From: Allobosea sp. Root381
GTDB lineage: Bacteria > Pseudomonadota > Alphaproteobacteria > Rhizobiales > Beijerinckiaceae
NCBI RefSeq assembly: GCF_001429395.1
Contig: NZ_LMJT01000023.1
Location: 79,631 to 143,630 of the forward strand
DNA length: 64,000 bases
Reading direction: 5' to 3'
The translations under genes and the position numbers were made by a program. Each line of letters begins with the position of its first letter. Position 1 is the first letter of the stretch. The notes beneath the pieces are model-generated. The model was given only the letters and a program-made list of their open reading frames with translations, was not told the origin of the DNA and ran no database searches. Below are positions 27,554-59,978 of this stretch, piece by piece.

Positions 27554-27554
27554 G

Positions 27555-29815: not shown

Positions 29816-29945
29816 GACCTTCTCCCTGGTTCCACCCTGGCCGTTTGCCGCCTTTGCGCGGGGGCCATGCTTTGTTGCCCCCTGTCGTTGCCGGGGTCTT
29901 GTTGCGGCGATAGTCATGACGACGGGTGATGACGTCAAGCAAAAA

Positions 29946-29961
29946 ATGAATTACGAGTCAT
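29946..29961. promoter_or_regulatory. Candidate TetR operator, site 2
   Basis: ATGAATTACGAGTCAT lies in the divergent spacer between the binding-protein gene and the acyl-CoA ligase gene. With flanks it matches site 1 in 20 of 24 positions, although its own dyad is weaker (5 of 8 pairs). One site here could control both divergent promoters, including the unit that encodes the TetR itself. Confidence 0.55.
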
Positions 29962-30036
29962 AAACCAGAAAACGATGCGACCGGCACCTGCGAGGCGCTG
30001 GCGCCAGGGCGGAAACGGCACGGGCGGCGGGCAGGA

Positions 30037-39498: not shown

Positions 39499-39531
39499 GA
39501 GGACACCGTGGCGATGGCTGTGCGCCGGCCC

Positions 39532-39619
39532 GTCATTGCGAGGAGCGTCAGCGACGAAGCAGCCCAGGGGCGGCAGCGCTCGACGTCCCCCTGGGTTGCT
39601 TCGCTTCGCTCGCAATGAC
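39532..39619. repeat. Family B palindromic repeat
   Basis: GTCATTGCGAGGAGCG on the left and CGCTCGCAATGAC on the right form an inverted repeat about 88 bases long. A second complete copy is at 42518-42605. Confidence 0.8.
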
Positions 39620-39649
39620 GAGGGCGCCTGGTGGCAAGGGCGGGCCTTA

Positions 39650-43500: not shown

Positions 43501-43504
43501 CGCG

Positions 43505-44548: not shown

Positions 44549-44549
44549 G

Positions 44550-46319
44550 TCAGCGCCTCCTCGTGCCGAAAACAGACGAGAACCGGACCGCGCCATGCTG
44601 AGTCTGCGTGGGTGCGGCGGGGGCCGGCGGTGGGACGGGGGCCGGCATCGGCGGTCCCGGCGGCAGCTGCGATGCGGGCGGGCTCGTCGTCGATTGATAC
44701 GGCGAGGACGTATAGGGTGGTGGCGCAGGCGGCGTGATAGCTGGCGAGACCTGCTCATAGCGCGGCACCTGTGTCGGCGCGGCGCGCCCGTCGCGCGAAC
44801 CGTCCATCACCGGCTGCTTGCTGAGCGGGATGCGCATCGTGCCGGCCGGCAGCGTCTGGGTGGCGGTGCCGGCTCGCGTGTCCGGCCGGCCGATTTGGCC
44901 CTTGGTGTCGATGACAGTCGCCGGGACCTGGCCCCGCTCGCCGGCGCCGCCCGTATGGGAGGTCTGCCGCCTGGCCTGCTCGGAGAGCGGCCAGTTCGCC
45001 GTTTCCGCCGCGACCTGCACGCATTCGATCAGCGCCGTGTTCTTGGCGGCACGGCGATGCGGCTTCATGTCCCCGTCGCGATAGGCGTTGAGGATGCGGA
45101 ACTCCATCGGGTCCATGTTCGCCGCCTCGGCGAGCCGGTCCATCTGGACCTCGAGCGCGAAATCGACCGCCGTGACGCCGAAGCCGCGCATCGCGGTCGA
45201 GGGGCAGCGATTGGTGTAGGCGACGTGGATGTCGGAGGCGACGTTCGGGATCCAGTAGGGCCCGGGCACATGCGCCGTGCACTTGATCGCCGCATAGCTC
45301 GACAGCCGCGTATAGGCGCCGGCGTCGAAATAGCTGCGGATGTAGCGGGCGACGATGCGCCCGTCCCGCATCAGCCCGTCCTTGACGTAGATGCGCTCGG
45401 CGCCGCGCGGCGAGCCGTAGAGCATCTCCTCCTCGCGATCGAGCACGAAGCGCACCGGCTTACCTGTCATCATCGCACCGAGCACGGCCAGCGGCTCGGT
45501 CAGCGAGTCGACCTTGCCGCCGAAGCCGCCGCCGACCGTGCCGCCGACGAAATGCAGCATATTCGAGGGCAGGCCGACGATCTTGGCCGTGGTGTCGAGC
45601 GAGAAGAAGAGGCCCTGCGCGCAGGAATGGACGAGATAGCGCCCGTTCTGGTCCGGCGCGGCGATGGTGCCGTTGGTCTCCGTCGGCGCATGCTCGATCG
45701 GAGACATCTGGTAGCGGTGCTCCATGACGATGTCGGCCGAGGCGAAGCCGCGCTCGACATCGCCGAAGCGCAGCTTCTGGTGGTCGAAGCGCTCGTGATA
45801 TTCGAAGTAGTTGCCGGGATAGGTTTCGTTGACCGTCGGAGCACCCGGCGCCAGCGCCTCCTCGACGTCGAACACGGTCGGCAGCGGGTCGTAGTCGATG
45901 CGCACCAGTTTGCGCGCGGCCAGCGCCTGCGCCTCGCTCTCGGCGATGATCGCGACGACGGGCTCGCCCTTGTAGCGGACCTTGTCGACGGCGAGCGATG
46001 GCTCGTCGTCCTTGCCGAAATTGATCAGGCTCAGCAGCGTGTTCTTGTTCACTGGCACGTCGGCGCCGCGCAGCACGCGCTTGACGCCAGGTGCGCGCTC
46101 GGCGGCCGAGACGTCGATCGAGCGGATGCGGGCATGGGCATGCGGGCTGCGCACGATCTTGAGATGCAGCAGCCCCTCGAATCCGTGATCGTCGAAATAG
46201 CGCGTCCGCCCGGTGACATGGCCGGGCATGTCCTGCCGCTGCAGGCCCTTGCCGACGACGTTGAGATTGTCGTCCCGTTCGTCGGCAAAGAGGTCCTTGC
46301 GCATCTCCATCGTGGCCAT
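44550..46319 (-). CDS. Molybdopterin-binding hydroxylase subunit, N-terminal half with Pro-rich tail
   Basis: This 589-residue protein has the N-terminal half of the Mo subunit followed by an unusual tail. VGKGLQRQDMPGHVTGRTRY opens it, GGTVGGGFGGKVDSLTEPLA (GGGFGGK at 263-269) is the cofactor loop, and STAMRGFGV the substrate-pocket arginine segment. CO dehydrogenases carry VAYRCSFR at that place, so this is not a CODH. The core ends near residue 450. Residues about 455-589 are Pro/Thr/Ser-rich with no relation to the family, ending in polyproline runs. It lies between the 2Fe-2S gene and the C-terminal half. Confidence 0.85.
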   Translation of the reverse strand: MATMEMRKDLFADERDDNLNVVGKGLQRQDMPGHVTGRTRYFDDHGFEGLLHLKIVRSPHAHARIRSIDVSAAERAPGVKRVLRGADVPVNKNTLLSLINFGKDDEPSLAVDKVRYKGEPVVAIIAESEAQALAARKLVRIDYDPLPTVFDVEEALAPGAPTVNETYPGNYFEYHERFDHQKLRFGDVERGFASADIVMEHRYQMSPIEHAPTETNGTIAAPDQNGRYLVHSCAQGLFFSLDTTAKIVGLPSNMLHFVGGTVGGGFGGKVDSLTEPLAVLGAMMTGKPVRFVLDREEEMLYGSPRGAERIYVKDGLMRDGRIVARYIRSYFDAGAYTRLSSYAAIKCTAHVPGPYWIPNVASDIHVAYTNRCPSTAMRGFGVTAVDFALEVQMDRLAEAANMDPMEFRILNAYRDGDMKPHRRAAKNTALIECVQVAAETANWPLSEQARRQTSHTGGAGERGQVPATVIDTKGQIGRPDTRAGTATQTLPAGTMRIPLSKQPVMDGSRDGRAAPTQVPRYEQVSPAITPPAPPPYTSSPYQSTTSPPASQLPPGPPMPAPVPPPAPAAPTQTQHGAVRFSSVFGTRRR

Positions 46320-46329
46320 GGCGTCCTCC

Positions 46330-46812
46330 TCAGGCTCGGCGCGCGCCGGGCGCGTTCGCCGCGGCCAGGATCGCGGTGACGATCGGCTCGTAGCCGGTGC
46401 AGCGGCAGATGTTTCCGCTGATCGCCTCGATGACCTCGTCGCGGGTCGGGCTCAGGTTCTTCGCCAGCAGCGCCCGTGCCGCAGTCAGCATGCCCGGCGT
46501 GCAGAAGCCGCATTGCGCCGCGAAATGGTCCATGAAGGCGGCCTGCAGCGGGTGCAGCTCCGGCCCGTCGGCAAGGCCAGAGGCGGTCTCGACATGGCGA
46601 CCCTCGCAGGCGACAGAGAGCGTCAGGCAGGAGAGCACCGGTTCGCCGTCGACCAGCACGGTGCAGACGCCGCAGGTGCCCTGGCCGCAGCCATATTTCG
46701 GCGCGAATTCGCCGAGGCCCCGCCGGAGCGTGTTGAGCAGGGTCTCGGGCGCGTCGACGAAGGCGGCGCGGTCGGAGCCGTTGAGCCGGAACTGGACCGG
46801 GGTCTTGGCCAT
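46330..46812 (-). CDS. 2Fe-2S subunit of molybdenum hydroxylase (CoxS type)
   Basis: This 160-residue protein carries two 2Fe-2S clusters. The plant-type cluster is in YGCGQGTCGVCTVLVDGEPV followed by LSCL. The second is in QCGFCTPGMLTAA and GNICRCTGYEPI. It relays electrons from the Mo site to the FAD subunit. ATG 46812 gives the standard N-terminus and normal length. It lies between the FAD gene and the N-terminal Mo half. Confidence 0.95.
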   Translation of the reverse strand: MAKTPVQFRLNGSDRAAFVDAPETLLNTLRRGLGEFAPKYGCGQGTCGVCTVLVDGEPVLSCLTLSVACEGRHVETASGLADGPELHPLQAAFMDHFAAQCGFCTPGMLTAARALLAKNLSPTRDEVIEAISGNICRCTGYEPIVTAILAAANAPGARRA

Positions 46813-46823: not shown

Positions 46824-47648
46824 TCAGCGGGCTTCGCCGGCGAGCAGCCGGCCGAGATGGACGGGCAGCACCTCGCGACGATACCACTCGCTCGCGATCG
46901 CATCGGTGGCCGGGCGGCAACCTTCGAGCGCCGCCTGTTGCGCCGCCTGGATCGCGGCCGCATCAAGCGTCTTGCCCTCGAGCGCCCGCTCGACGCCACG
47001 CGCCCGGACCGGCACCGGTGCCATCGCGCCATAGGCGACGCGGGCCTGCATGATGCGCCCGCCCTGCGCCGGCAGATGCGCCGCGATCGACATCACCGCG
47101 ATGCCCTTGGGCTTGACCCGGCTGATCTTGCGGAAGCGGAAATCGGCCGGGTTGGCCGGCCGCGAAACCTGCACGCCGGTGATCAGCCCGGGCAGGGTGC
47201 CGCGCTCGCGCCCGGCCAGGAACTCCTCCAGCGGCACGCCGCGGCCGGTGCCGTAGCCGGCCTGGACCACGACCTGCGCGTCGAGCGCCAGCAGCGCGAC
47301 GGTGAAGTCCCCATAGGGCGTCTCGGCGAAGAGATTGCCGCCGATCGTCGCCATGTTGCGCACCGCCGGTCCGCCGATGGCGCGCGCGGCCGGATGCAGG
47401 AAGGCGAGGTCGCGGCTCGCCAGCACCTGCGCCATCGTCACCCCGGCACCGAGCTCGATCCGGCCCCCGCTGGCGTTCAGCTGGCGGAACGCGGGGTCGG
47501 TGACGCGCAGCAACGTGCCTTCGGTCAGCCGCCCCTCGTTGACGTCCCGCATCACCAGCGTGCCGCCCCCGACGAGCACGGCCTGCCGGTCTCCGGAGAG
47601 GATGCCGGCGGCCTCGGCAAGCGTCGCGCAGCTTCTCAGGCCCAGCAT
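46824..47648 (-). CDS. FAD-binding subunit of molybdenum hydroxylase (CoxM type)
   Basis: This 274-residue FAD subunit has the PCMH/VAO-type fold. AVLVGGGTLVMRD is the first FAD-binding motif; the family usually has AGGT. IGGPAVRNMATIGGNLFAET is the second, TIGGN, motif. KISRVKPKGIAVMSIAAHLP marks the start of the C-terminal domain. It receives electrons from the 2Fe-2S subunit. It lies one base from an SRPBCC gene upstream and 11 bases from the 2Fe-2S gene, in the usual M-S-L order. Confidence 0.92.
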   Translation of the reverse strand: MLGLRSCATLAEAAGILSGDRQAVLVGGGTLVMRDVNEGRLTEGTLLRVTDPAFRQLNASGGRIELGAGVTMAQVLASRDLAFLHPAARAIGGPAVRNMATIGGNLFAETPYGDFTVALLALDAQVVVQAGYGTGRGVPLEEFLAGRERGTLPGLITGVQVSRPANPADFRFRKISRVKPKGIAVMSIAAHLPAQGGRIMQARVAYGAMAPVPVRARGVERALEGKTLDAAAIQAAQQAALEGCRPATDAIASEWYRREVLPVHLGRLLAGEAR

Positions 47649-47649: not shown

Positions 47650-48102
47650 TCAGGCGCCCTCCGGGCTGAGTTCGGGCAGGCGGCGGACCGCCTCGATGCC
47701 GTTGGTGTAGACCTCGTCTCCGACGATGCGGGCGAGTTCCGCCTCGCGCCCGGGCGGCGTGGTGAACCGGCTCTCCCAGTGCCAGAAGGCCCGGTTGCCG
47801 TCCGTCACCGGCAGCAGCCGGACATGGGCGACGTAGTTGAACAGCGGGATCGGCGTGTCGAGCAGGCAGTAGCTGAAGGTCATTTCGAGGTCCGAGAGGG
47901 TGAGCAGCTGCTCGCGCAGCTCGCTGCCGTCCTGCAGGGAGAAACGGCGCACGCAGCCGATCCTGTCGGACGGGTAACCGCGCTCGATCTCGCTCCGCGC
48001 CACGATCGGATGCCAGCGATCATGGCCGTTGAAATCGCGCAGGATCGACCATAGCCGGTCGACCGGCGCGTCGATGATGGTGCTGCGGACGACGTGAGGC
48101 AT
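47650..48102 (-). CDS. SRPBCC-family (START-like) protein 1
   Basis: A 150-residue protein with a hydrophobic-pocket START/Bet v1-like fold. APVDRLWSILRDFNGHDRWH is the family start, EQLLTLSDLEMTFSYCLLDT and PLFNYVAHVRLLPV the central strands, and WHWESRFTTPPGREAELARI the end. It shares its layout with the next upstream gene, so the two are probably ancient duplicates. In CO dehydrogenase clusters the SRPBCC protein CoxG links the Mo enzyme to the membrane; a similar job here is inferred only. Confidence 0.85.
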   Translation of the reverse strand: MPHVVRSTIIDAPVDRLWSILRDFNGHDRWHPIVARSEIERGYPSDRIGCVRRFSLQDGSELREQLLTLSDLEMTFSYCLLDTPIPLFNYVAHVRLLPVTDGNRAFWHWESRFTTPPGREAELARIVGDEVYTNGIEAVRRLPELSPEGA

Positions 48103-48106: not shown

Positions 48107-48544
48107 TCATCCCCCGAATGCGCGCTTGAGCGCGTCGAATCCGCCCTGGAAGACATTCGTGCCGATGCCCTGGATGAGCTCCGCCGCGCGCTCCGGCGCG
48201 CAGTCGAAATCGGCCGACCATTCGATGAAGGTCCGCTCCTGGTCCGTGATCGGGGTCAGCCGCATCGTCGCGACGTAGTTCGTCAGCGGCATCGGCGAAT
48301 CCAGGATCGCGTAGGTGCAGAACATGTCGTAGTCCGACAGGCCAAGCAGCTGCTCGCGCAGCCTGTCGCCGCTGCGGAGCGTGAAGGCGCGGATGCAGCC
48401 GACCTTGTCGGCCGGCTCGCCGTTCTCGATGCGGCTTTCCGCGATCCGCGGATGCCAGTTCGGCAGGCCGTTGAAGTCACGCACGCGAGCCCAGACCTTG
48501 GCGGCGGGTGCGGCGATGACGCTGGAGACATAGACACGAGCCAT
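48107..48544 (-). CDS. SRPBCC-family (START-like) protein 2
   Basis: A 145-residue START-like protein. SVIAAPAAKVWARVRDFNGL and PNWHPRIAESRIENGEPADK open it, and FIEWSADFDCAPERAAELIQ ends it. The SDYDMFCTYAILDSPMPLTN stretch matches the equivalent part of SRPBCC protein 1. It lies 4 bases upstream of that gene and 12 bases after the flotillin gene. It probably binds a hydrophobic ligand; which one is unknown. Confidence 0.85.
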   Translation of the reverse strand: MARVYVSSVIAAPAAKVWARVRDFNGLPNWHPRIAESRIENGEPADKVGCIRAFTLRSGDRLREQLLGLSDYDMFCTYAILDSPMPLTNYVATMRLTPITDQERTFIEWSADFDCAPERAAELIQGIGTNVFQGGFDALKRAFGG

Positions 48545-48556: not shown

Positions 48557-51451
48557 TCAACCCTTCGCCTCGGGCGCGCCTGCGGCGCCGTCGCCGCCGC
48601 CCTTGTCTCCTGCGCCCTTCGGCTTGGCCGGCTGGGTCTCCTTGGCGACGCGCTGCATGTCGGAGGCCTCGCGCATCAGCCCGCCCATCTTGGCGAGGTT
48701 GCCCCCCTCGATGCCGATTTCCTTCAGCACCTGGTCGATCATCGGCGCCTGGACGCGGTAGCGCAGGGCGGATTCGATCACCTCGTCGGTGGGCGAGCGC
48801 GCCGCCCCGCCCGCTCCGCCGGCGCTGCCGCCGCCACCCGCCAGCCCATCGACATGGAGGATGCGGATGCCCTCGATCTTCTCCATCGGCTTGACGCTCT
48901 CGCGCACGATGCCCTCGATCTTGTCGAGCAGGCGGCGCCGGAACAGCCCGTAGCGGGCGCCGTCCGAAAGCACGTTCTCGGCCTCGTAGAGCAGCTTCTG
49001 CGCCTCGGCATCGACGGCCTTGCGGATCTTGTCGGCCTCGGAGGCGATGCGCGATTCCTCCGCGGCCTTCTCGGCGAGCAGCACCTCGACGGTCTTGCGC
49101 CGCCGCGCGCCCTCGCTCTCGCGGATGGTCTTGACCTTCTCCTCGGCCTCGACCGCCTTGCCGCGGGCGATCTCGGCATTGGCCTGGGCCGCGCTTTCCT
49201 CCAGCGACTTGGCGTAGAGCGCGATGGCCTTGTCCATCGCGGCGCTCTCGACCTCGCGCTCGCGCTCGATCTCGAGCTTGCGCAATTCGCGCTGGCGGCC
49301 GACGCGGGCCTCGTCGAGGCCGCGATCGGAGGAGATGCGGGCGCGCTCGACCTCTTCGTTCGAGGCGATCTGCGCCTCCTGCAGCGCCTGCGTCCGGGCG
49401 ATGTCGAGTTGCTCCACCGCGCGGCGCCGCTCGATCCGCGCCGCTTCCAGCGCCTGCTCGCGGACGATGTCGACCGTCTCGACCTGCTGGCGCGCGGTGA
49501 TCTCGGCCTGCCGCAGCGTCTTGTCGGCGTCCGCCCGCTCGACCCGCTTGGCGGCGATCGCGATGGCGCGATCCTCCTCCGCGACCTCGACCGCCTTCTT
49601 CTGGGCGATCTGCATCATCTCGCGGGTCTTGGAGGAGTCGATGCGCTCCTTTTCCAGGCCGAGCTCGGTCACGATGCGCTGGCGCTCCACCGTGTCGCGC
49701 CGCTTCAGCTCGGCGCTGTCGAGATCGGCGTTGCGCTTGATCTCGAGTTCCTTGGTCGCGAGCTCTGCCGCGATGCGCTCTGCCGACACCGCCTTTTCCT
49801 GGGCGATGCGGGCGGCTTCGGTGGCCTCGCGCGCCGAGATCTCCGCGGTCTCGATGGCCTGGCCGCGGAGGATTTCCAGGTTGCGGATCTCCTCGTCGCG
49901 GCGGATGCGCTCGCCGGAGACGCTGCGCTCCTGGGCGATGCGGGCTTTCTCGACGCTCTCGCGCGCCGAAATCTCGGCCGCCTCGACGGCCTCGGTGCGG
50001 CCGATCTCCAGCAGGCTCTTGCGCTGGTCGAGCGCAATCCGGTCGGCCGTGATCGCATCCTCCTGGGCGATGCGCGCCTTCTCGATCGCCTCGCGGGCGG
50101 CGATCTCGGCCTCGTCGAGCGCCCGGTTGCGGGCGATGCCGAGGGCACGGACGCGCTCCTCCTGGCCGATCCGGGCGGTCTCGACGGCCTCGCGCGCCGC
50201 GATGTCCTCCTGGTCGAGCGTGCGGGTGCGCTCGATCTCACGGTTGCGCACCTCCTGCTCGCGAGCGATGCGCTCGGCATTGACCGCCGTCTCCTGCAGG
50301 ATCCGGGCCCTCTCGGTGGTCTCGCGCGCCGCGATCTCGGCGGCCTCGATCACCTGGGCGCGTTCGATCTCCTGCTGGCGGATGTCGCGTTCGGAGGCGA
50401 TCCGGGCCGTATTGATCGCCTGCTCATTGGCGATGCGCGCCTTCTCGACCAGTTCGCGCGAGGCGATCTCGGCCTCCTCGACGGCCTGGGTGCGGGCGAT
50501 CTCCTGCTGGCGGATGTCGCGCTCCGAGGCGATGCGGGCCTCGCTGATCGCGCGCTCGTTGGCGATGCGGGATTTCTCGATCTCCTCGCGGGAGAGGATC
50601 AGCGCCTGCTCGGCCTCGGTGTCGCGGGCGGCGCGCTCGCGGGCCACCTCGGCGCGCTGGACCGCGCGCCTGATCTCGATCTCGCGCTGCTGCTCGAGCC
50701 TCGCCGACTCGCTGTCGCGCTCGATGTCGAGCGCCTGGCGCTCGGCCTCGAGATTGCGGGTGCGGATGCGGATCATCGAGTCCTGCTCGATGTCGTTGCG
50801 CAGCTTCCGCTTGTCCTCGATCTCCTCGATGATCCGGGTCAGGCCGGCGGCGTCGAAGCGGTTCGACGGGTTGAAATATTGCAGGTCGGTCTGGTCGAGA
50901 TCGGTCAGCGCGACGGATTCGAGCACGAGCCCGTTCTGGTCGAGCGCCTCGGCGGCGGCGTCCTTGACGCGCTGGACGTAAGTTCCCCGCTGCTCGTGCA
51001 TCTCCTCCATCGTCATCTCGGAGGCGACGGTGCGCAGCGCCGAGATGAACTTGCCGGAGAGCAGGGCATTGAGCTGGTCGGGCTGCAGCGTCCGGCGGCC
51101 GAGGGTCGCGGCGGCGACGGAGACCGCCTCGCGCTGCGGCCGGACGCGGACATAGAACTCGGCGTCGATATCGACGCGCATCCGGTCCCGGGTGATCAGC
51201 GCGTCGTTGCTGGCGCGCGTCACCGCGAGTTGCAGCACGTTCATGTTGACCGGCGTGACGTCGTGGATGATCGGCAGCACGAAGGCGCCGCCGTTGATCA
51301 CCACCTTTTCGCCGAAGAGCCCGGTGCGGACGAAGGAGACCTCCTTCGAGGAGCGGCGATAGAGCCAGTTCACCAGATAGACGACGATGGCGATGACGAT
51401 CACCGCCACGATCAGCCACAGGATGAGCGATCCGATCAGCTGTCCCGTCAT
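48557..51451 (-). CDS. Giant flotillin-like SPFH protein with hendecad repeats
   Basis: This 964-residue membrane protein is much longer than typical bacterial flotillins (about 500-700). One TM segment (about 5-28) is followed by the SPFH/band-7 domain (about 35-200; SFVRTGLFGEKVVINGGAFV, RDRMRVDIDAEFYVRVRP). A very long charged helix spans about 205-830. Residues 290-586 are seven tandem repeats, six of 44 residues and one of 33, each built of 11-residue units such as AINTARIASER and DIRQQEIERAQ. The C-terminus has a Gly-rich hinge and a short helical domain. The gene heads the Mo-hydroxylase operon, 12 bases before the SRPBCC genes, which is unusual for flotillins. Confidence 0.88.
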   Translation of the reverse strand: MTGQLIGSLILWLIVAVIVIAIVVYLVNWLYRRSSKEVSFVRTGLFGEKVVINGGAFVLPIIHDVTPVNMNVLQLAVTRASNDALITRDRMRVDIDAEFYVRVRPQREAVSVAAATLGRRTLQPDQLNALLSGKFISALRTVASEMTMEEMHEQRGTYVQRVKDAAAEALDQNGLVLESVALTDLDQTDLQYFNPSNRFDAAGLTRIIEEIEDKRKLRNDIEQDSMIRIRTRNLEAERQALDIERDSESARLEQQREIEIRRAVQRAEVARERAARDTEAEQALILSREEIEKSRIANERAISEARIASERDIRQQEIARTQAVEEAEIASRELVEKARIANEQAINTARIASERDIRQQEIERAQVIEAAEIAARETTERARILQETAVNAERIAREQEVRNREIERTRTLDQEDIAAREAVETARIGQEERVRALGIARNRALDEAEIAAREAIEKARIAQEDAITADRIALDQRKSLLEIGRTEAVEAAEISARESVEKARIAQERSVSGERIRRDEEIRNLEILRGQAIETAEISAREATEAARIAQEKAVSAERIAAELATKELEIKRNADLDSAELKRRDTVERQRIVTELGLEKERIDSSKTREMMQIAQKKAVEVAEEDRAIAIAAKRVERADADKTLRQAEITARQQVETVDIVREQALEAARIERRRAVEQLDIARTQALQEAQIASNEEVERARISSDRGLDEARVGRQRELRKLEIEREREVESAAMDKAIALYAKSLEESAAQANAEIARGKAVEAEEKVKTIRESEGARRRKTVEVLLAEKAAEESRIASEADKIRKAVDAEAQKLLYEAENVLSDGARYGLFRRRLLDKIEGIVRESVKPMEKIEGIRILHVDGLAGGGGSAGGAGGAARSPTDEVIESALRYRVQAPMIDQVLKEIGIEGGNLAKMGGLMREASDMQRVAKETQPAKPKGAGDKGGGDGAAGAPEAKG
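49694..50584 (-). repeat. Coding tandem repeat (hendecad coiled coil) in the flotillin gene
   Basis: This segment codes for residues 290-586: units of 44, 44, 44, 33, 44, 44 and 44 residues, all ending in a form of AEIAARE. The 33-residue unit has lost exactly one 11-residue block. The spacing is a multiple of 11 throughout. Confidence 0.85.
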
Positions 51452-51498
51452 GTCCTCATCCTCCCGTCATGCCGTCCGCCGCCAGCCTCTCCCCGTTC

Positions 51499-51541
51499 AG
51501 CCCTCATCCCGAGGAGCGCCGCAGGCGCGTCTCGAAGGATG
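51499..51541. repeat. Family A repeat, inverted copy
   Basis: AGCCCTCATCCCGAGGAGCG to CGTCTCGAAGGATG is the reverse complement of the family A consensus with some changes. It forms a pair with the copy at 51570. Confidence 0.75.
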
Positions 51542-51569
51542 CTCCAGGAGGTGCCGGAAACGTCTGGAC

Positions 51570-51612
51570 CATCCTTCGAGACGCCGCTTCGCGGCTCCTC
51601 AGGATGAGGGCT
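51570..51612. repeat. Family A repeat, direct copy
   Basis: CATCCTTCGAGACGCCGCTT to AGGATGAGGGCT is nearly identical to the 36187 copy. With the inverted copy 28 bases away it can fold into a large hairpin between the PEP-hydrolase gene and the flotillin gene. Confidence 0.8.
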
Positions 51613-51629
51613 GTGGGGCAGGGCGGCTC

Positions 51630-52526
51630 TCACGATTTACGTTCCTTGCCGGCCTTGCGCGCCGGCTTTGCTGTCTTGGCCTTGGCGGGGTCGGTTCCGC
51701 GCCCGATCCGCTTGAAGGCGCGCGTCTGGTCGCGGATCGCGACCTCGACCGGCAGACGCTCCATCGAGGAGGCGCCGTAGAAGCCGTGGCAATGCCTGGT
51801 GTTCTTCATGATGAAGTCGGCATCGGCCGGCTCGGCGACCGGCCCGCCATGGACGAGGATGATCGCGTCCTTCTTCACCTTCAGCGCCGCGGCCGCCCAG
51901 GCATCGACCAGCGCCGGGCAGTCGGCGAGCTTGAGCGCCGTCTCGGCGCCGATCGAGCCGCCAGTGGTCAGGCCGAGATGGCAGACGATGATGTCGGCGC
52001 CGGCCTTCGCCATGGCGCGGGCGTCGTCCTCGCAGAAGACGTAAGGCGTGGTCAGCAGGCCCTTGGCATTGGCGAGCGCGACCATCTCGACCTCGAGGCC
52101 GTAGCCCATGCCGGTCTCCTCGAGGTTCTTGCGGAAGGTGCCGTCGATCAGGCCGACCGTCGGGAAATTCTGGATGCCCGCGAAGCCGATGCGCTTCACC
52201 TCGTCGAGGAAGACGTCCATGCTCCGGAACGGATCGGTGCCGCAGATGCCAGCGACGACGGGCGTCTTCCTGACGACCGGCAGCACCTCGGCCGCCATTT
52301 CCATGACGATGGCGTTGGCGTCGCCATAGGGCATCAGCCCCGAGAGCGAGCCGCGGCCGGCCATGCGGTAGCGCCCGGAATTGTAGATCACGATCAGGTC
52401 GATCCCGCCGGCCTCCTCGCATTTGGCCGAGAGGCCGGTGCCGGCGCCGCCGCCGACGATGGGCTCGCCGGCCGCGATCATGGCGCGGAAGCGCTTGAGC
52501 AGGGGCTTCTTGTCGAATGCGGTCAT
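51630..52526 (-). CDS. Phosphoenolpyruvate-hydrolase-family TIM-barrel protein
   Basis: This 298-residue TIM-barrel protein belongs to the PEP hydrolase/'TIM-barrel signal transduction' family. [20 protein letters not shown] and [20 protein letters not shown] are diagnostic. [20 protein letters not shown] and [20 protein letters not shown] follow, then [21 protein letters not shown] basic tail (about 280-298) is extra. It overlaps the fused ATPase/Tm-1-like gene by 4 bases. In plants this barrel is the C-terminal half of Tm-1, and the Tm-1 N-terminal domain is in the neighbouring protein here. Confidence 0.88.
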
Positions 52527-54772
52527 GACCTGCCTCCGCCCGCCCGCTCGCGGCGGCGGCCGGCGTGCAGCGACTGGAACTGCTGCACCAGCGCCGCGGC
52601 GAAGGCGGGGTCGTTGATGTGGTGCGGCAGGCGGATGAGCTGCCGGTTCAGGCCGGTCCGCACCGTCTGCTCCAGCGCCTGGAACAGGGCGGCATCGGCG
52701 GCGGGATCATGGAAGGGCTGGCCGGGGGCATCGAGCGCCGAGACGCCGAGCTCGGGGATGAGGAAGCGCACCGGGCCTTCCATCAGGTTCAGCCGCTCGC
52801 CGATCCAGCGGCCCATGCGGGCGTTCTCGTCCGGCGTCGTGCGCATCAGCGTGATCTGCGGGTTGTGCGGATGGAGCTTCCGGGCGCGATAGCGCTCCGG
52901 CACCGTCTCGGGCGCGAAGAAATTGACCATGTCGAGCGCCCCGACCGAGCCAACATAGGGAATGCGCGTGCGGATGATGGCGCCGAGGCGATCCTCGGTG
53001 GCGGGCAGCAGGCCGCCCATCATCATGTCGGCGATCTCGGTGGCGGTGACGTCAATCACCGCCCCGACCAGCCCGGACTCGACCAGCTTCTCCAGCGATT
53101 GCCCGCCGGTGCCGGTGGCGTGGAAGACGAGCGGCTCCCAGTCCTTCTCCAGCAGCTTCGCGACCTGCTGGACGCAAGGGGTGGTGACGCCGAACATGGT
53201 GAGGCCGACCAGCGGCTTCTCGGGCTCGGCTCGGCGCAGCGCGCTCTCCCGGCGCAGATCGGCGAGCCGCGCCTTCGCCATCGCCGCGACCGCGCGCGCC
53301 CCGTTGCCGAGCACCAGCCGCGAGACGCGGTTCAGGCCCTGCACGTCGGTGACGGCATGCATCATCGCGATGTCGGTGGCGCCGACATAGGCGCGGACAT
53401 CGCCGGAGGCCATGGTCGAGATCATCAGCTTGGGCAGGCCGACGGGCAGGGCCTGCATCGCCGGCGTCACCATCGCCGTCGCCCCCGAGCCGCCGGCCGA
53501 GACGATGCCGAGCACGCCCTCCTGCCGCGGCAGCCAGGCCTTGAACGCCTCCGTCATCGCGGCGACCGCGGTGCCGCGGTCGCCCGAGGCGATGCCGGCC
53601 GAGCCGCGCGGGGAGGCGAGCGCGACCTGCTGCGGGGTGACGTCGCCGCCGGCGCTGCGGCCCGAGGTCGAGAGATCGACGAGCAGCGTGCGCAAGCCCT
53701 CGGCGCGGATCAGGTCGCGGATGTAGCGGAGTTCTTCGCCCTTGGTATCGAGCGTGCCGGCGACGACGACATAGGGATCGCCGGTCGCGGCTGCCGCGAG
53801 TGGGCGGATGGCGCCGACCGGCTGGCCGTCGCGCGTCGCCAGGACGGGCCGCGAGATGGTGCGCGCCTGGGCCTCGATCCGGGCGGCGGGCACGGGCTGC
53901 GACCAGCGCGTCGGGATGACCGGGTTGGCGTTGTAGACCCGCGTCGGCCCGGTCGGGGCGGCCGGAGCGGCGCGGGCGGCGGTCGCTCCCTCGGTCGCGG
54001 GCTCGGGCGCGCCGTCTGTCTCGTCATGGCCGTGGCGGCCGACCCCGAGCAGGCGCTGCTGCAGGTCGCGGTCGCCGGCGAGCGTCGCGGAAGCGATGAC
54101 GCGGTTGACCCGGCCGTTGACCATGATCGCGACGGGGTCGGACATCTCCGTCGCGACGCCGATGTTTTGCTCGATCACCAGGATGGCAACGTCGCCCTGA
54201 TCGGCGAGCCGGACCAGCATCTCCTCGACATGGGCGACGATGACCGGAGCCAGGCCCTCGGTCGGCTCGTCCATCACCAGCAGGCGCGGATTGAGCAGCA
54301 GGGCGCGCCCGATGGCCAGCATCTGCTGCTCGCCGCCGGAGAGCTGGGCGCCGCCATTGTTGCGCCGCTCGGCCAGACGCGGAAAGGCCTCGTAGATGCG
54401 CTCAGTGGTCCAGGCGCCACGCTTGCCGCGCTGCATCAGGCGCAGATGCTCGTCGACGGTCAGCGAGCGCCAGAGCCTGCGGCCTTGCGGCACGTAGCCG
54501 ATGCCCAGCCTGGCGATCTCGGCCGGGGAGCGGCCGGCGATCTCCTCGCCGAACAGGCGGATCGAGCCGGAGCTGATCGGCACCAGCCCCATGATCGCCT
54601 TGCACATGGTCGTCTTGCCCATGCCGTTGCGGCCGACGACCGAGAGCACGCCGCTCTGCAGCGCGAGGTCGACGCCCTGCAGCGCATGAGAGCGCCCGTA
54701 GAAGACGTTCAGCCCCGCGATCTGCAGGACCGGGATGCCGGGGCCGGGGGGAGCCTTGAGGCGCTCAGCCAT
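52523..54772 (-). CDS. Fused LivF ATPase and Tm-1-like (UPF0261) protein
   Basis: This 749-residue protein joins two usually separate proteins. Residues 1-245 are a LivF-type ABC ATPase: Walker [10 protein letters not shown] (47-55), signature LSGGEQQ (144-150), Walker B LLVMDEP (164-170). A Pro/Ala-rich linker (about 250-330) leads to a Tm-1-like ATP-binding domain of the UPF0261 family (about 333-735), with [60 protein letters not shown] and [20 protein letters not shown]. It is the only LivF of the second transporter, so the fusion should be functional. It overlaps livG by 8 bases. Confidence 0.9.
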
Positions 54773-55583
54773 GGCCGCCTCCGAGGTAGAGTTCCTGTAC
54801 CTCGGGATCGGATTCGATCTCGGCGGGGGCGCCTTCCTTGAAGATGCGGCCGTTGTGCATCATCGTCACGCTCTCGACGACGCGCAAAGCGACATCCATG
54901 TCGTGCTCGATGATGATGAAGCCGATATGGGCGGGCAGCGAGGTCAGGATATGGACGAGGTCGCGCCGCTCCGTCGGCGAAAGGCCCGCCGCCGGCTCGT
55001 CGAACAGGATGAAGCGCGGCGCGCCCGACAGGGCCAGCGCGATCTCGAGCTGGCGCTGCTGGCCATAGGCGAGCTCGCCGACGAGGCGGTCCTTGACCGG
55101 CGCCAGATGCACCGCCTCGACGAGGTTCTCGGCAGCATGGACCAGCGTGTCGTCGCGACGCGGGCGCATCAGCGAGAAGCGGTTCCGCGAGACGCCGCGG
55201 CAGGCGAGATAGACGTTGTCGAGCACCGACAGCCCCGCGAAGAGCGAGGAGATCTGGTAGGTGCGGCGCAGGCCGCGGCGAATGCGCTCCTGCGGCGGGA
55301 AGGCGGTCACGTCCTCGCCGAAGAAGCGGATGATGCCGGAGGAGGGCGCGAAATCGCCGGTGATGCAGTTGAACAGCGTGGTCTTGCCGGCGCCGTTCGA
55401 GCCGAGCACGCCGCGCCGCTCGCCCGGCCGCACCGAGAGCGTGACGTCGGACAGCGCGGCGAGTGCCCCGAACAGCCGCGAGACGCCGCGCAGCTCCAGC
55501 GCATTGGCCGAACCGGCGGAGGCGAGGGCATCACGACCGGGCACGGAGCTCACGGAGCCGGCGGTGGCGGCGATGGCGCTCAT
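54765..55583 (-). CDS. livG: Branched-chain-type ABC transporter ATP-binding protein LivG (system 2)
   Basis: This ABC ATPase has 272 residues. A 25-residue Ala/Ser-rich N-terminal extension precedes LELRGVSRLFGALAALSDVT. Walker A is LGSNGAGKTTLFNCITGDF, the Q-loop RRGLRRTYQISSLFAGLSVL, the signature LAYGQQRQLEIALAL, Walker B FILFDEPAAGLSPTE and the H-loop IIIEHDMD. The signature reads AYGQQ rather than SGGQ, as in many LivG proteins. It overlaps the livM gene by 4 bases. Confidence 0.9.
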   Translation of the reverse strand: MSAIAATAGSVSSVPGRDALASAGSANALELRGVSRLFGALAALSDVTLSVRPGERRGVLGSNGAGKTTLFNCITGDFAPSSGIIRFFGEDVTAFPPQERIRRGLRRTYQISSLFAGLSVLDNVYLACRGVSRNRFSLMRPRRDDTLVHAAENLVEAVHLAPVKDRLVGELAYGQQRQLEIALALSGAPRFILFDEPAAGLSPTERRDLVHILTSLPAHIGFIIIEHDMDVALRVVESVTMMHNGRIFKEGAPAEIESDPEVQELYLGGGHG

Positions 55584-56668
55584 GGCTCGCCTCCGCCGAT
55601 CCGCATCTGCGTGACGCGGCCGTCCTGGCTCCGGCGATAGCGTTCGCGCAGGCGTTGCCAGATGCCGACGAGCCCGTCCGGCGAGAACAGCACGATGATC
55701 AGGAAGCCGAGCCCGATCACCAGCTGGTAGCGGCGGCCGTCGAGCCCCAGCCCTTCCAGCATGTCGAGCGAGAAGGTCCGCAGCACGACATAGACCAGCG
55801 CGCCTACGAAGGGGCCGATCGGGCGGGTCAGCCCGCCGACCACGGCGATGATCAGGATGTCGACCACCGGGCCAACGCCGGCTGTGCCGGGCGAGACCTG
55901 GCGCTGGTACCAGACCAGCAGCACGCCCGCGGTCGCGGCGATCGCCGAGGCGAAGGTATAGGCGGCGACGCGATGCGCCATCACATCGAAGCCGAGCGCG
56001 GCCATGCGGCGCGGATTGTCGCGCGTGCCCTGCAGTGCCAGCCCGAAGGGCGCGCGCGAGACATAGAGCACGACCGCATAGGCGAGGGCGGCGAGCACCA
56101 GCGTCAGATAGTAGAACGGGATCGTGTCGCCCCATTCGACGCCGAGGAAGACCGGCGGCATGACGCCGTTGAAGCCGCTGAAACCGTTGAAGATCGTGTA
56201 GTTCTGCAGGGTCAGGTAATAGAAGGCCGAGCCGATCGCGAGCGTGATCATGATCGTGTAGATGCCCTCGGTGCGGACCGAGAGCGCCCCGCTCAGCGTG
56301 CCGAACAGGGTCGCGACCAGGATCGCGACCGGCGCCGCCATCCACCACGGCCATTTCAGGCTGATCTGCGTGATCGCGCTGTCGCCGAGGATGGCGACGA
56401 GATATGCGGCAAAGCCCGCGACCGTCATCTGCACTAGGCTGACGATGCCGCCATAGCCGGCGAGGAACATCAGGCTCAGCGCCACCATGCCGAGGATCAG
56501 CGCATAGGCGAGGATCTGGACCAGCCAGAACGGGCTGGCGAGCACCGGCATCACCAGCAGCAGCACCGACACTACCCAGAAGGCCGCGCCGCGGCGCGCC
56601 ACCCAGGCCGAGAGGCCCTCGGTGGCGGGCGGGCGATAGCCGGTGGTGCGGGTGTCGATCACGGCCAT
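55580..56668 (-). CDS. livM: Branched-chain-type ABC transporter permease LivM (system 2)
   Basis: This inner-membrane permease has 362 residues and about ten hydrophobic segments. MFLAGYGGIVSLVQMTVAGF is the LivM hallmark. FGLALQGTRDNPRRMAALGF is the coupling loop, and IIAVVGGLTRPIGPFVGALV the conserved segment near the end. ATG 56668 fits the family; two codons further upstream another ATG exists. It lies two bases from livH. Confidence 0.9.
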   Translation of the reverse strand: MAVIDTRTTGYRPPATEGLSAWVARRGAAFWVVSVLLLVMPVLASPFWLVQILAYALILGMVALSLMFLAGYGGIVSLVQMTVAGFAAYLVAILGDSAITQISLKWPWWMAAPVAILVATLFGTLSGALSVRTEGIYTIMITLAIGSAFYYLTLQNYTIFNGFSGFNGVMPPVFLGVEWGDTIPFYYLTLVLAALAYAVVLYVSRAPFGLALQGTRDNPRRMAALGFDVMAHRVAAYTFASAIAATAGVLLVWYQRQVSPGTAGVGPVVDILIIAVVGGLTRPIGPFVGALVYVVLRTFSLDMLEGLGLDGRRYQLVIGLGFLIIVLFSPDGLVGIWQRLRERYRRSQDGRVTQMRIGGGEP

Positions 56669-56670: not shown

Positions 56671-57684
56671 TCAGCGCCTCGCTGCCGCGAGGCCCTGCGG
56701 GCGGACCGCGAGCACCGCGACCATGATGACGAAGGTCAGCATCACCGCATAGGTCGGCATGTAGACCGAGCCGAACTGCTCGGCGAGGCCGACGATGAGC
56801 GCGCCCACCGCCGCGCCCGGGATCGAGCCCATGCCGCCGACGATGACGACGACCAGCGAGGAGAGCAGGATCTTGGTGTCCTCGCCCGGCTGCAGCGACT
56901 GGAAGGTGCCGCCGACGACGCCGGCAAGGCCCGCGAGCCCCGCCCCGAAGGCGAAGACCATGACGAAGACGAGCTGGACGCGCACGCCAGTGGCCGAGAG
57001 CATGTCGCGGTCGTCGACCCCGGCGCGCACCAGCATGCCAACGCGGGTGCGGTTGAGCGCCAGCCACATCGCGACGCCGAGCACGATCGCGCCGATCAGG
57101 ATGGCGATGCGGACGAAGGGATAGGTCATCATCACCGCGTCGCCATTGCCGCGCAGCGCCACGACGAAGGGAAGCTGCACCGGGCCGGAGAGCCAGTCCG
57201 GCGTGGTGACCTGGAAGGTGTCGCCGCCATAGTTCCAGAGCAGCAGGTCGGCGAAGACGATCGAGAGGCCTATGGTGACGAGCGTCTGGCGCAGATCCTG
57301 CCCCTCCATCCAGCGGAAGAGCAGCACCTGCATCAGCACGCCGACGATGGCGACGATGACGAAGGCGGCCACGAGCGCGACGAGCCAGGAGCCGGTCAGC
57401 GTGCCGATGCTGTAGCCGACATAGCCGCCGAACAGGTAGAGCGAGCCATGGGCGAGGTTGACGTTGCGCATCAGGCCGAAGATCAGCGTGAAGCCGCTCG
57501 CCACGAGGAAATACAGCGCGCCCAGCGTGATGCCGTTGAACAGAGCGCTGAGGAAGACGCGCTTGCGGCCCATCATGGCCTCCATGCCCGGCGTCCAGAC
57601 CGAGAAGACCAGCCAGGCGAGGATGCCGATCGCGATGATGATCACGAGCGACCAGACCGGGCGGCGGGCGATGAAATCAGACAT
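56671..57684 (-). CDS. livH: Branched-chain-type ABC transporter permease LivH (system 2)
   Basis: This inner-membrane permease has 337 residues. An N-terminal extra TM (about 10-30) precedes the standard core, which starts at FLSALFNGITLGALYFLVAS. LMRNVNLAHGSLYLFGGYVG is the conserved second segment, MLVRAGVDDRDMLSATGVRV the coupling loop, and VIVGGMGSIPGAAVGALIVG the C-terminal hallmark. ATG 57684 overlaps the AraC gene stop by 8 bases, so regulator and transporter share one transcript. Confidence 0.9.
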   Translation of the reverse strand: MSDFIARRPVWSLVIIIAIGILAWLVFSVWTPGMEAMMGRKRVFLSALFNGITLGALYFLVASGFTLIFGLMRNVNLAHGSLYLFGGYVGYSIGTLTGSWLVALVAAFVIVAIVGVLMQVLLFRWMEGQDLRQTLVTIGLSIVFADLLLWNYGGDTFQVTTPDWLSGPVQLPFVVALRGNGDAVMMTYPFVRIAILIGAIVLGVAMWLALNRTRVGMLVRAGVDDRDMLSATGVRVQLVFVMVFAFGAGLAGLAGVVGGTFQSLQPGEDTKILLSSLVVVIVGGMGSIPGAAVGALIVGLAEQFGSVYMPTYAVMLTFVIMVAVLAVRPQGLAAARR

Positions 57685-58567
57685 TGGCCGCCCGCATGGA
57701 AGGGGCGGCCCGCAGGGGCCGGGCCGCCGGCAGGGGTGAGGGGTCAACCGTGCGCAGCACGCGCCGATAGTCCCGCGGCGCCATGCCCATATGGGCCGTG
57801 AAGAAGCGGGTGAAGACGCTCTGGCCGGAGAATCCGAGGCCGTCGCCGATCTGCGTCACCGGATCGCGCGAGAACACCAGCCGGTCGAGTGCGGCGTCGA
57901 GGCGCACCGTGTTGGAGAAGACGGTGGGGGTGACGCCGACCTGCTGCCGGAAGAGCTTGAAGAAATGGGCGCGCGACAGCCCCGCCTCGCGAGCGACGCG
58001 TTCGAGAGCGCCCTCATAGCTCGGATGATCCTCGAGCAGGCGGCAGGCGCGCAGCACGCGGCGATCGATCGCGCCTTCGGGAGCGAGATGGGCGAAGGAG
58101 GACGCGAGCTCCGGCTCGATCGGTTCGCTCGACGCCTGGGCCAGCGCCATCAGCACCGGGCCGGGATCGAGCTCGCGGCGCGAGCACAGCAGCATCTCGA
58201 CGATCTTGTCGCGCCAGGCGGCGAGCTCGCGGGTGACGACCAGCTCCGAGGAGGGGAAGACGATGCCGCCGGGCGGGCTCATCGCCTGGGCCGCAAGCCA
58301 TTCCGGCCGGAGATAGACGACGAGGAAGAGGCCGAAGCTGCCGGGGCTCTCCGGCTGGAAATTATGCGGCTCCCACGGATTGATGGCGATGCCCATGAAG
58401 GGGTCGACGCGGGTGGTCCGACCGCCGATGGTGACGAGGCCCCGCGAGCCCTCCAGGAAGAAGATCAGGTGGGCCTCGCGATGGGCGTGCAGCACCAGCG
58501 GGCGGTCGAGATCGTAGATCGAAACCCGGCCGAAGGGGCCGTGGCAGACCGCGACTGCGCGACTCAT
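57677..58567 (-). CDS. AraC-family transcriptional regulator
   Basis: This regulator has 296 residues. The N-terminal cupin-like sensor domain (about 1-150) has LVLHAHREAHLIFFLEGSRG and FMGIAINPWEPHNFQPESPG. The C-terminal AraC domain holds two helix-turn-helix units: LERVAREAGLSRAHFFKLFR, with QQVGVTPTVF after it, and QIGDGLGFSGQSVFTRFFTA, with HMGMAPRDYRR after it. ATG 58567 is the sensible start. It lies between the binding-protein gene and livH, so it probably controls this operon in response to the transported compound. Confidence 0.9.
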   Translation of the reverse strand: MSRAVAVCHGPFGRVSIYDLDRPLVLHAHREAHLIFFLEGSRGLVTIGGRTTRVDPFMGIAINPWEPHNFQPESPGSFGLFLVVYLRPEWLAAQAMSPPGGIVFPSSELVVTRELAAWRDKIVEMLLCSRRELDPGPVLMALAQASSEPIEPELASSFAHLAPEGAIDRRVLRACRLLEDHPSYEGALERVAREAGLSRAHFFKLFRQQVGVTPTVFSNTVRLDAALDRLVFSRDPVTQIGDGLGFSGQSVFTRFFTAHMGMAPRDYRRVLRTVDPSPLPAARPLRAAPSMRAANV

Positions 58568-58727: not shown

Positions 58728-59978
58728 CTATTTCTTGCATTCCGGGTTGGTGCGCGAAGGCAGGCCCACAGCCTTGAAGGCTTCCGGGCTCAGCCCCATC
58801 GTCTTGTTGACGTCGGGGACGGTGCGCACGAACTTGTTGGTCAGCTCGCCATTCGGCAGTTCCGCGACCTCGGTGATGAAGGTCGTGGCGATCGCCTGCC
58901 GATCGTCGTCGAGCTTGATCTTGCCGTTGGGCGCGTCGAGCTCGACCTTGGCGAGTTCCGCCCGCAGCTTGGTGCCGCCGTCGGAAAGGTCGGCATTCAC
59001 CTTGTTGAGCGCGGTCGCGAGCGCTGTGAAGGCGTTGTAGTAGTTCGTCGCGAAGAGCGACGGGCTGGCGAAGCGCTTGTCGGCCGGGAAGGCGTCCTGA
59101 TAAGCCTTGACCCAGGCCTTCCAGCGCGGATCGTCCCAGGCGTCCGCGACGCCGCCCGAGGAGGGCGTGCCGACCAGGAGCTTCTTGGCGGCGCCCTTGG
59201 ACGAGAGCACGGTCTGGTCGACCATGATCGAGCCGCCGACGAACTTCGCGTTGCCGCCAGTCTGGCTGTACTGGTTCAGGAAGTTGACCGCGTCGCCGCC
59301 GCCGAGGCCGAGGAACACCGCATCGACGTCATCGGGGATGTTGGCGATGACCGAGCCGAAATCCTTGGTGCCGAGCGGCACCCATTGGCGCTGGGTGATT
59401 TCGCCGCCGGCCTTGCAATAGCCGAGCGCGAAGCCGAAGACCTGGGTGTAGGGGAAGGAGTAGTCCTCCGCGATCACGGCGACCTTCTTGTAGCCCTTGT
59501 CCTTGAAGACGTAGTCGCCGAGGCCGGCCATCCACATCGCGCCGTTGCTGTTGAAGCGGAAATAGTTCGGCGACGGGTTGACGTAGGTGGTCTCGAGCGC
59601 TCCCGAGGAGCCATCGACGACCGTCACGTTCGGGACGGTCTTGGAATAGTCGCGGATCGCGATGCCCTCGGAGCCCGAGAGCGGGCCGACGATGACCTGG
59701 ACCTTGTCCTGCTCGACGAGCTTGCGCGCCGCCCTGAGGGCGGAGTCGGGGCTGGCGTCGGTGGTCGCGATGATCAGCTCGACCTCGCGGCCGGCGATCT
59801 TGTTGCCGAGCTGCTTCAGCGCGACCTGCACGCCGCGCACGCCATCCTCGCCGCCGGACGTCAGTGCGCCCGACAACGTTGCCATCATCCCGATCTTGAG
59901 CTTTTCCTGGGCACCGGCGACCGATGACGCAGCAATGAGACTGCAGGCCGCGACGGCGGCCATAAGCACCTTCCGCAT
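58728..59978 (-). CDS. ABC transporter substrate-binding protein LivK-like (system 2)
   Basis: This periplasmic type-I binding protein has 416 residues. A Sec signal (MRKVLMAAVAACSLIAASSV, cleaved after AGA) precedes KLKIGMMATLSGALTSGGED. VIVGPLSGSEGIAIRDYSKT and VDGSSGALETTYVNPSPNYF are typical. Two cysteines are present near residues 190 and 414. GGGAGGAAA lies before the ATG, a strong ribosome-binding site. It heads the leftward operon that ends with the PEP-hydrolase-family gene. A 160-base spacer separates it from araC. Confidence 0.92.
   Translation of the reverse strand: MRKVLMAAVAACSLIAASSVAGAQEKLKIGMMATLSGALTSGGEDGVRGVQVALKQLGNKIAGREVELIIATTDASPDSALRAARKLVEQDKVQVIVGPLSGSEGIAIRDYSKTVPNVTVVDGSSGALETTYVNPSPNYFRFNSNGAMWMAGLGDYVFKDKGYKKVAVIAEDYSFPYTQVFGFALGYCKAGGEITQRQWVPLGTKDFGSVIANIPDDVDAVFLGLGGGDAVNFLNQYSQTGGNAKFVGGSIMVDQTVLSSKGAAKKLLVGTPSSGGVADAWDDPRWKAWVKAYQDAFPADKRFASPSLFATNYYNAFTALATALNKVNADLSDGGTKLRAELAKVELDAPNGKIKLDDDRQAIATTFITEVAELPNGELTNKFVRTVPDVNKTMGLSPEAFKAVGLPSRTNPECKK

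Follow-up and report, generated by a model that had tools for sequence, protein, structure and literature searches.

What is one half of a plant antiviral protein doing on the ATPase subunit of a bacterial solute importer? The question is raised by a 64,000-nucleotide stretch of the Allobosea sp. Root381 genome (contig NZ_LMJT01000023.1, positions 79,631 to 143,630 of the forward strand; the whole stretch is called the window below), in which a LivF-type ATP-binding cassette (ABC) ATPase continues, in a single open reading frame (ORF), into UPF0261. Together with a triosephosphate isomerase (TIM) barrel, UPF0261 makes up tomato Tm-1 and the plant Tm-1-like proteins; the antiviral activity, binding of tobamovirus replication proteins, is known for plant Tm-1 only. 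The window holds the same two modules with the same conserved core, but in the plant proteins they share one chain, whereas here UPF0261 has LivF as its fusion partner and a gene of its own encodes the TIM barrel. Bacterial Tm-1 halves are generally separate, co-evolving genes, and full-length Tm-1 seems to have a function besides virus resistance, according to the parts of Yang et al., 2016 (PMC5028733) used here; the term 'ABC transporter' has 0 occurrences in the text of that paper.

The LivF-UPF0261 fusion and its TIM-barrel partner

The fusion is a 749-residue ORF at 52523-54772, on the minus strand like all genes described below. It consists of a LivF-type ATPase (residues 1-240, 54053-54772), a linker of about 90 residues (241-330, 53783-54052) with the conserved motif NP..PTRWSxPVP..IE..ART, as aligned among fused proteins, and both UPF0261 domains (331-749, 52523-53782). 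Pfam places ABC_tran at residues 32-171 (2.3e-25), the N-terminal UPF0261 domain at 334-502 (8.8e-58) and UPF0261_C at 519-735 (1e-88), the two domains corresponding to the PF06792 and PF23189 pair. Both UPF0261 domains match over the full profile, with 195.6 and 296.7 bits against a curated cut-off of 27, and this part of the protein reaches 587 bits with the NCBIfam model NF002673 (cut-off 520); the models nearest to the ATPase part are UrtE/LivF, with scores below their cut-offs. The gene next downstream (51630-52526) overlaps the fusion by 4 bp (ATGA) and encodes a PEP_hydrolase (PF09370) TIM barrel at residues 10-274 (3.6e-129), so that UPF0261 and its Tm-1-type partner are adjacent genes. 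The UPF0261 part matches the tomato Tm-1 chains 3wry and 3wrw (E about 1e-93), and the barrel matches 2p10, the Mll9387 protein (E 2.3e-118). A first-pass annotation, made from the sequence alone, had described UPF0261 as the C-terminal part of the LivF ORF, the TIM barrel as the next gene with a 4-base overlap, and the two genes together as holding both halves of Tm-1; the ORF coordinates and strand, the Pfam domains and the structural-chain matches bear this out.

The fusion ORF is the only UPF0261 match in the genome. It belongs to a complete Liv/HAAT importer with a solute-binding protein, two BPD_transp_2 permeases and two ATPases, LivG (54765-55580; ABC_tran 9.3e-27, BCA_ABC_TP_C) and LivF, of which only the latter, with its Walker A, signature and Walker B motifs, carries UPF0261. 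The window therefore has the full set of components of other Liv/HAAT importers, and differs from them in the C-terminal extension of about 500 residues on LivF and in the catabolic genes of its operon. Two public records label the fusion protein 'ABC transporter permease', which hides the fusion.

Relatives were sampled by scanning GTDB species genomes with an alignment (A1), and the best 80 of 588 were kept. LivF and UPF0261 share one ORF at 78 of these 80 loci, all from other genomes, a figure that describes the clade rather than the whole UPF0261 family since 12 of the 13 rows of A1 were themselves fused. The two exceptions are an apparently frameshifted locus (L074) and a standalone UPF0261 (L105). 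An assembly error, which the first-pass annotation had allowed for, is ruled out as the source of the fusion by its recurrence in single ORFs of other genomes. Within Hyphomicrobiales, UPF0261 is matched in 90 of the 249 genomes sampled, and at 16 of 31 loci (L001-L031, the first being the window's own) an ABC signature lies within the N-terminal 280 residues of the ORF that holds UPF0261; one of these 16 is cut by a contig end. The TIM barrel accompanies the fusion: its domain starts within 400 bases of the fusion stop at 72 of the 73 fused loci with at least 900 bases downstream. Counted by ORF within 600 bases the figure is 66 of 78, lower partly through long ORF starts.

The fusion is present in Alpha-, Beta- and Gammaproteobacteria, with many soil and marine bacteria among its hosts. 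Walker A, signature and Walker B are conserved throughout 82 fused proteins, and 79 of these show the pattern [PT].RW at the centre of the linker motif. Nei-Gojobori dN/dS (nonsynonymous to synonymous substitution) ratios, calculated against seven relatives, stay under 1 throughout the protein, at 0.08-0.21 for LivF, 0.21-0.43 for the linker and 0.17-0.38 for UPF0261.

LivF and UPF0261 are also found side by side without being fused. In Thermomicrobium roseum, which lies outside the Proteobacteria and is the one species covered by our survey outside Pseudomonadota, they are two neighbouring genes with the TIM barrel next in line, and they are adjacent but unfused at three further loci (L121, L122 and L125). 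We also built a quick IQ-TREE tree of 95 UPF0261 rows, 46 of them fused, after dropping 11 repeated short loci and rows more than 82% alike. When each of the 95 rows carries a label, this tree calls for 4 changes of the fusion trait, which means that fusion is clustered and yet was gained or lost more than once. These repeated changes, the unfused neighbours and a linker dN/dS that is the highest of the three parts are what one would expect if fusion only secured equal expression of two proteins that act separately, the linker being a passive tether. Because a TRW-centred motif conserved in the linker is unexpected in such a tether, and because the fusion is spread over three proteobacterial classes, we judge this explanation unlikely.

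UPF0261 as a candidate small-molecule kinase

The first-pass annotation had called UPF0261 an ATP-binding domain. This can be sharpened to a probable ATP-dependent small-molecule kinase. An AlphaFold2 model of the window's UPF0261 domain (predicted local distance difference test score, pLDDT, 89) superposes on Tm-1 (3wrw) with Z 44.8 and a root-mean-square deviation (rmsd) of 3.0 over 384 aligned residues, and on 9mpy with Z 31.2, rmsd 7.9, 389 aligned residues and 33% identity. The title of 9mpy describes Saro_1862, a UPF0261 domain protein of Novosphingobium aromaticivorans, with acetovanillone bound; by sequence it matches the UPF0261 part of the fusion over 406 residues (E 9.6e-58). Beyond 9mpy and further Tm-1 entries, structural matches fall to Z 11 among the best 50 of 999 chains. 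DUF1537-type acid-sugar kinases are absent from these 50, which excludes nothing.

In N. aromaticivorans, acetovanillone catabolism starts with a single-component kinase, MarK, as described in the parts of PMC13101465 (2026) drawn on here, and we infer that MarK is Saro_1862. A second line of support comes from a sampled locus (L190) whose UPF0261 gene is 69% identical to 9mpy and overlaps the beginning of a gene set for a biotin carrier, a biotin carboxylase and a carboxyltransferase. In the Hpe pathway, genes of these kinds (HpeCBA) come after the HpeHI kinase (PMC9618137, in part). The UPF0261 gene of L190 thus sits where a known phenol kinase would, which supports the kinase reading independently. 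Like Saro_1862, the fused domain has the full-length UPF0261 fold and the shared conserved core. This core comprises 36 positions common to the clade partnered with TIM barrels, most distant paralogues, Tm-1, 9mpy and L190 (counted without rows L157, L197, L204 and L205), and is 99.6% intact in 98 fused and 99.4% intact in 59 unfused rows; since it was chosen on the same alignment, with some genes present twice, these figures show only that the fused proteins are not degenerate.

The partner barrel is compatible with this assignment. Its model (pLDDT 77) matches 2p10, deposited as a putative phosphonopyruvate hydrolase, with Z 33.6, and its next structural relatives are triosephosphate isomerase, indole-glycerol-phosphate synthase and tryptophan synthase alpha (Z about 18). 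All three have phosphate esters as substrates, as would suit the partner of a kinase, though this is a weak hint given that TIM barrels are alike among themselves. We therefore read UPF0261, by analogy with these relatives, as a likely ATP-dependent small-molecule kinase that is attached to the importer in this case, and the TIM barrel as probably acting on the phosphorylated product.

Several points weigh against the kinase assignment. The identity of MarK with Saro_1862 rests on inference. Saro_1862 is standalone and belongs to a distant subfamily: 9mpy and L190 form a separate branch of the tree (inner branch about 3 changes per site), outside the subfamily of the fused clade, and L190 has no TIM-barrel match within about 9.5 kb. 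None of the three carboxylase parts of the L190 type was matched in the 84 fused-type loci (E 1e-10; the window was judged by its Pfam list), and the Hpe/Acv arrangement of a biotin-dependent carboxylase next to the kinase is thus absent from these loci. T. roseum has its own two-piece PEP-synthase-type, dikinase-like pair near the Tm-1 pair, which none of the other 83 of the 84 loci has; its ATP-grasp piece is closer to the PEP synthase 8a8e (best match) than to 9goj (second), and the other piece matches 5fbs/5hv1. The code 9goj is named once in the text of the HpeHI paper. The dikinase-like pair may either strengthen a phenol-phosphate theme or mean that UPF0261 has another job in T. roseum. 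With the carboxylase missing and the dikinase-like pair confined to T. roseum, the pathway encoded in the window is a different one from Hpe. The likeness to HpeHI and AcvAB is one of chemistry, a proposed ATP-dependent phosphorylation of a hydroxyaryl compound that opens its catabolism, but these enzymes are two-component dikinases with an ATP-grasp and a swivel component, of another family than UPF0261 (PMC9618137 and PMC12167813, each in part).

A regulatory role has also been considered, in which cytoplasmic binding of ATP or of the imported solute to UPF0261 would slow or speed transport. Some ABC ATPases (MalK, ModC, MetN) carry C-terminal regulatory domains, and UPF0261 sits in just this place on one ATPase subunit. 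The partner family lends itself to sensing as well: beside a type-2 operon (defined below), one protein (L095:1770-3515) has a PF09370 barrel and a Fis-type helix-turn-helix in one chain by Pfam, where the barrel is probably reused as a ligand sensor. A pure sensor, though, would be expected to lose catalytic residues, and the core is equally intact in fused and unfused proteins, with the reservation already made on how it was chosen; moreover, the TIM-barrel partner is kept directly behind the fusion at 72 of the 73 loci with room for it. We regard a regulatory role as improbable. Members of the same gene cluster as the PF09370-Fis protein, by clustering, are found at L091:1729-3477, L100:989-2719 and L103:1-2310.

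On the tree, tomato Tm-1 stands beside the TIM-partner clade, to which the fused proteins belong (77 rows with Tm-1, SH-aLRT 99), on a long branch whose place is unsure. The Brucella UPF0261 gene BMEII0128/BAB2_1127 is among genes tied to attenuation or virulence in the parts of PMC2364660 and PMC12613988 consulted, which would be in keeping with a catabolic enzyme required inside the host. A defence function was tried and rejected: PADLOC matches to the fusion are confined to its ATPase part, the MoxR-type ATPase weakly matches AAA-bearing models, and PADLOC has no match for the TIM barrel, flotillin or CoxE.

The conserved operon and the nature of the substrate

The fusion lies in an operon with the order binding protein, AraC-type regulator, LivHMG, LivF-UPF0261, TIM barrel, flotillin, SRPBCC and, in most cases, a molybdenum hydroxylase whose large subunit is split. 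Upstream in the window are a Liv-type (HAAT) periplasmic solute-binding protein (58728-59978; Peripla_BP_6 6.4e-59), an AraC-type regulator with a cupin/AraC_binding domain (57677-58567, start chosen at the ATG at 58567; Pfam), found in the same place in type-1 loci, and the permeases LivH (56671-57684; BPD_transp_2 1.5e-34) and LivM (55580-56668; 2.4e-33), their starts read from the ORF list. Downstream of the barrel follow a long flotillin/SPFH protein (48557-51451; Flot 1.3e-33, Band_7 3.7e-18) and two SRPBCC proteins, the first CoxG-like by place (48107-48544; Polyketide_cyc2 4.9e-28) and the second at 47650-48102 (4.6e-19; start inferred). Among those of the 80 loci with enough sequence, the gene in question lies on the same strand for LivG in 75/76, LivM in 71/73, LivH in 70/72 and the binding protein in 42/43, and, downstream, for the TIM barrel in 71/72, flotillin in 62/64, SRPBCC in 61/63, the FAD subunit in 52/63 and each molybdopterin half in 51/62.

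Two layouts can be told apart among the 62 loci with 9.9 kb downstream. Type 1, with molybdenum hydroxylase, accounts for 51 and type 2, without it, for nine; two are of neither type. Type-2 operons, that of Variovorax among them, contain a fumarylacetoacetate hydrolase (FAH), an alpha/beta hydrolase and an amidohydrolase, and in some cases the PF09370-Fis protein. Among the 84 loci, an iron-containing alcohol dehydrogenase recurs at 21 and an aldehyde dehydrogenase at 8. Nine of the recurrent unlabelled gene clusters had a scanned representative; clusters 1, 10, 20 and 55 had none. At L084, from a gammaproteobacterial metagenome-assembled genome, LivG and LivF-UPF0261 are present and the stretch has no match to a TIM barrel, LivH or LivM.

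The molybdenum hydroxylase of the window comprises an FAD subunit (46824-47648; FAD_binding_5, CO_deh_flav_C), a 2Fe-2S subunit (46330-46812; Fer2_2 2.4e-29, start inferred) and a large subunit in two ORFs, the N half at 44550-46319 (MoCoBD_1 3.1e-66, hammerhead domain) and the C half at 43505-44758 (MoCoBD_2 1.4e-58 from residue 73; the true start is probably further in). This split (43505-46319 in the window) is found at 53 of the 54 loci, out of 84, that hold both parts, L033 included; in T. roseum MoCoBD_1 and MoCoBD_2 are in a single ORF. The two genes that follow are a MoxR-type AAA ATPase, by place a CoxD-like maturation factor (42616-43557; Pfam), and a VWA CoxE-like protein (41391-42503; VWA_CoxE 9.2e-49). 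With its CoxM/S/L-like, MoxR, VWA-CoxE and SRPBCC genes the cluster resembles those of molybdenum CO dehydrogenase (cox), but differs from them in the split of the large subunit and in its leaning towards xanthine dehydrogenase and 4-hydroxybenzoyl-CoA reductase (4-HBCR). The two halves reach 170.8 and 114.3 bits with the CoxL model TIGR02416 (cut-off 991), each half being too short to reach any full-length model; more telling, the N half does better with pucD (275.9) and the C half with 4-HBCR alpha (202.7), all of these scores being below cut-off. On these scores CO oxidation was set aside as the role of the enzyme. The SRPBCC proteins and the flotillin may point to an electron or lipid function close to the membrane.

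What, then, is imported? The window's binding protein is 48-84% identical to those of nine other loci, including Variovorax (type 2) and Thermomicrobium, and this likeness across type 1, type 2 and T. roseum makes one kind of ligand likely. The best solved relatives of its profile are 4zpj, 4ey3, 4evq, 8tg1, 4evs and 4f06, and we take the ligands of 4ey3, 4evq, 4evs and 4f06 to be hydroxybenzoates or similar lignin-type aromatic acids. The first-pass annotation had hoped that the operon would reveal the substrate. The evidence does lean one way, and we slightly favour an aromatic or N-heteroaromatic compound, but the operon by itself does not identify it, as a sugar-like compound also fits and retains a lesser, though real, share of the probability.

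The operon's last genes bear on this choice. They encode an amidohydrolase-2 protein (40510-41394; Pfam and family-model scores), distantly L-fuconolactonase-like (93 bits, cut-off 400), a metallo-beta-lactamase-fold hydrolase (39650-40498; Pfam) in the same position in Yoonia, and an SMP-30/gluconolactonase (SGL) lactonase fused to an isochorismatase-type hydrolase (37891-39735; Pfam), the last gene seen in common with the type-1 operon of Yoonia, where the same fusion lies at L246:5454-7046. The lactonase-like neighbours fit a sugar-like substrate and so tell against an aromatic one, as do standalone pairs linked to CUT1 importers and sugar-type enzymes (see below). The UPF0261/TIM pair might accordingly act on a sugar-like or polyol substrate such as a sugar acid or lactone, which would be compatible with a kinase and which the alcohol and aldehyde dehydrogenases at 21 and 8 of the 84 loci would also suit. 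We consider this rather doubtful, since 9mpy binds acetovanillone, the binding-protein relatives are putative aromatic binders, the molybdenum large-subunit halves score best on xanthine dehydrogenase and 4-HBCR models, if below cut-off, and isochorismatase, FAH and amidohydrolase genes fit the degradation of aromatics or heterocycles.

Two further features of the window were recorded. Between the TIM-barrel and flotillin genes (51498-51613) lies a 50-nt inverted repeat, 86% complementary, with a 16-nt loop; its core CATCCTTCGAGACGC has 4 copies in the window against 0.46 expected, and the repeat is therefore probably a dispersed palindromic element. A second Liv operon (24294-31146) has its own binding protein, a short-chain dehydrogenase/reductase and a neighbouring 403-residue ORF without Pfam match.

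Standalone pairs and the meaning of the fusion

The link to importers extends beyond the fusion. We compared 40 standalone UPF0261 loci (L120-L159), hand-picked from the Hyphomicrobiales sample as frames shorter than 530 residues, with 40 arbitrary control stretches from 22 of the same genomes. An importer permease (Liv or CUT1) lies within 5 kb at 19/40 standalone loci against 3/40 controls (Fisher p 1e-4); within 3 kb the counts are 9/40 and 3/40 and do not differ significantly (p 0.11). A UgpC-like ABC ATPase within 9.5 kb is found at 32/40 against 19/40, ABC ATPase genes being common everywhere. These permease counts link the UPF0261/TIM pair with importers in general, of which Liv is one kind, present near 3/40 standalone loci; some standalone pairs lie near sugar-type (CUT1) importers and MocA, cupin and aldo-keto reductase genes. 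The proposal of the first-pass annotation that the pair is tied to the uptake of a specific solute thus stands in part: linkage with Liv transporters is widespread in other genomes, both fused and unfused (T. roseum, L121, L122 and L125), but is not exclusive to Liv. A TIM barrel lies within 3 kb of standalone UPF0261 at 32/40 loci and an SRPBCC gene at 14/40, each against 0/40 controls, and SRPBCC is a possible third recurrent partner of the Tm-1 module. One of the 14 SRPBCC-bearing stretches, L156, has a Cox-like match.

Building on the observed anatomy, conservation and operon, we propose that the operon serves import and catabolism and that its LivF ATPase bears UPF0261 as a covalently joined kinase, and give this proposal an even chance. 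The binding protein and LivHMGF would take up a small hydroxylated molecule that is probably aromatic or N-heteroaromatic. UPF0261, kept at the inner face of the membrane by its linker on LivF, would phosphorylate the entering solute with ATP, and phosphorylation would trap the solute and mark it for catabolism. The TIM barrel encoded next, of a phosphate-ester-binding kind, may then cleave or rearrange the phosphorylated product, and the molybdenum hydroxylase, served by the SRPBCC proteins and the membrane flotillin, would complete the pathway with the dehydrogenases and hydrolases. Plant Tm-1 would be the same kinase and TIM barrel joined as one chain.

The UPF0261, PF09370 and Liv families were already known. 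The LivF-UPF0261 fusion and its operon are apparently new, as the consulted parts of the literature on UPF0261, on Tm-1-like families and on the gene cluster hold no description of either. The metabolic role of Tm-1 and of its two bacterial families has been open, and the fusion and operon bring three testable leads: the binding protein offers itself to ligand screening, the kinase hypothesis has a relative already solved with a ligand, and the TIM barrel is expected to take the phosphorylated product. We know of no ABC importer that couples import and phosphorylation on its ATPase subunit. Tentatively, and with somewhat less confidence than in the operon proposal itself, we suggest that such a subunit may itself be a small-molecule kinase, uniting import and solute phosphorylation in one machine as an ABC counterpart of phosphorylating uptake, and that the same kinase and phosphate-binding TIM barrel, joined in one chain, may be what plant Tm-1 originally was in metabolism. 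If true, such coupling on the ATPase subunit would set this importer apart from the ABC importers known to us.

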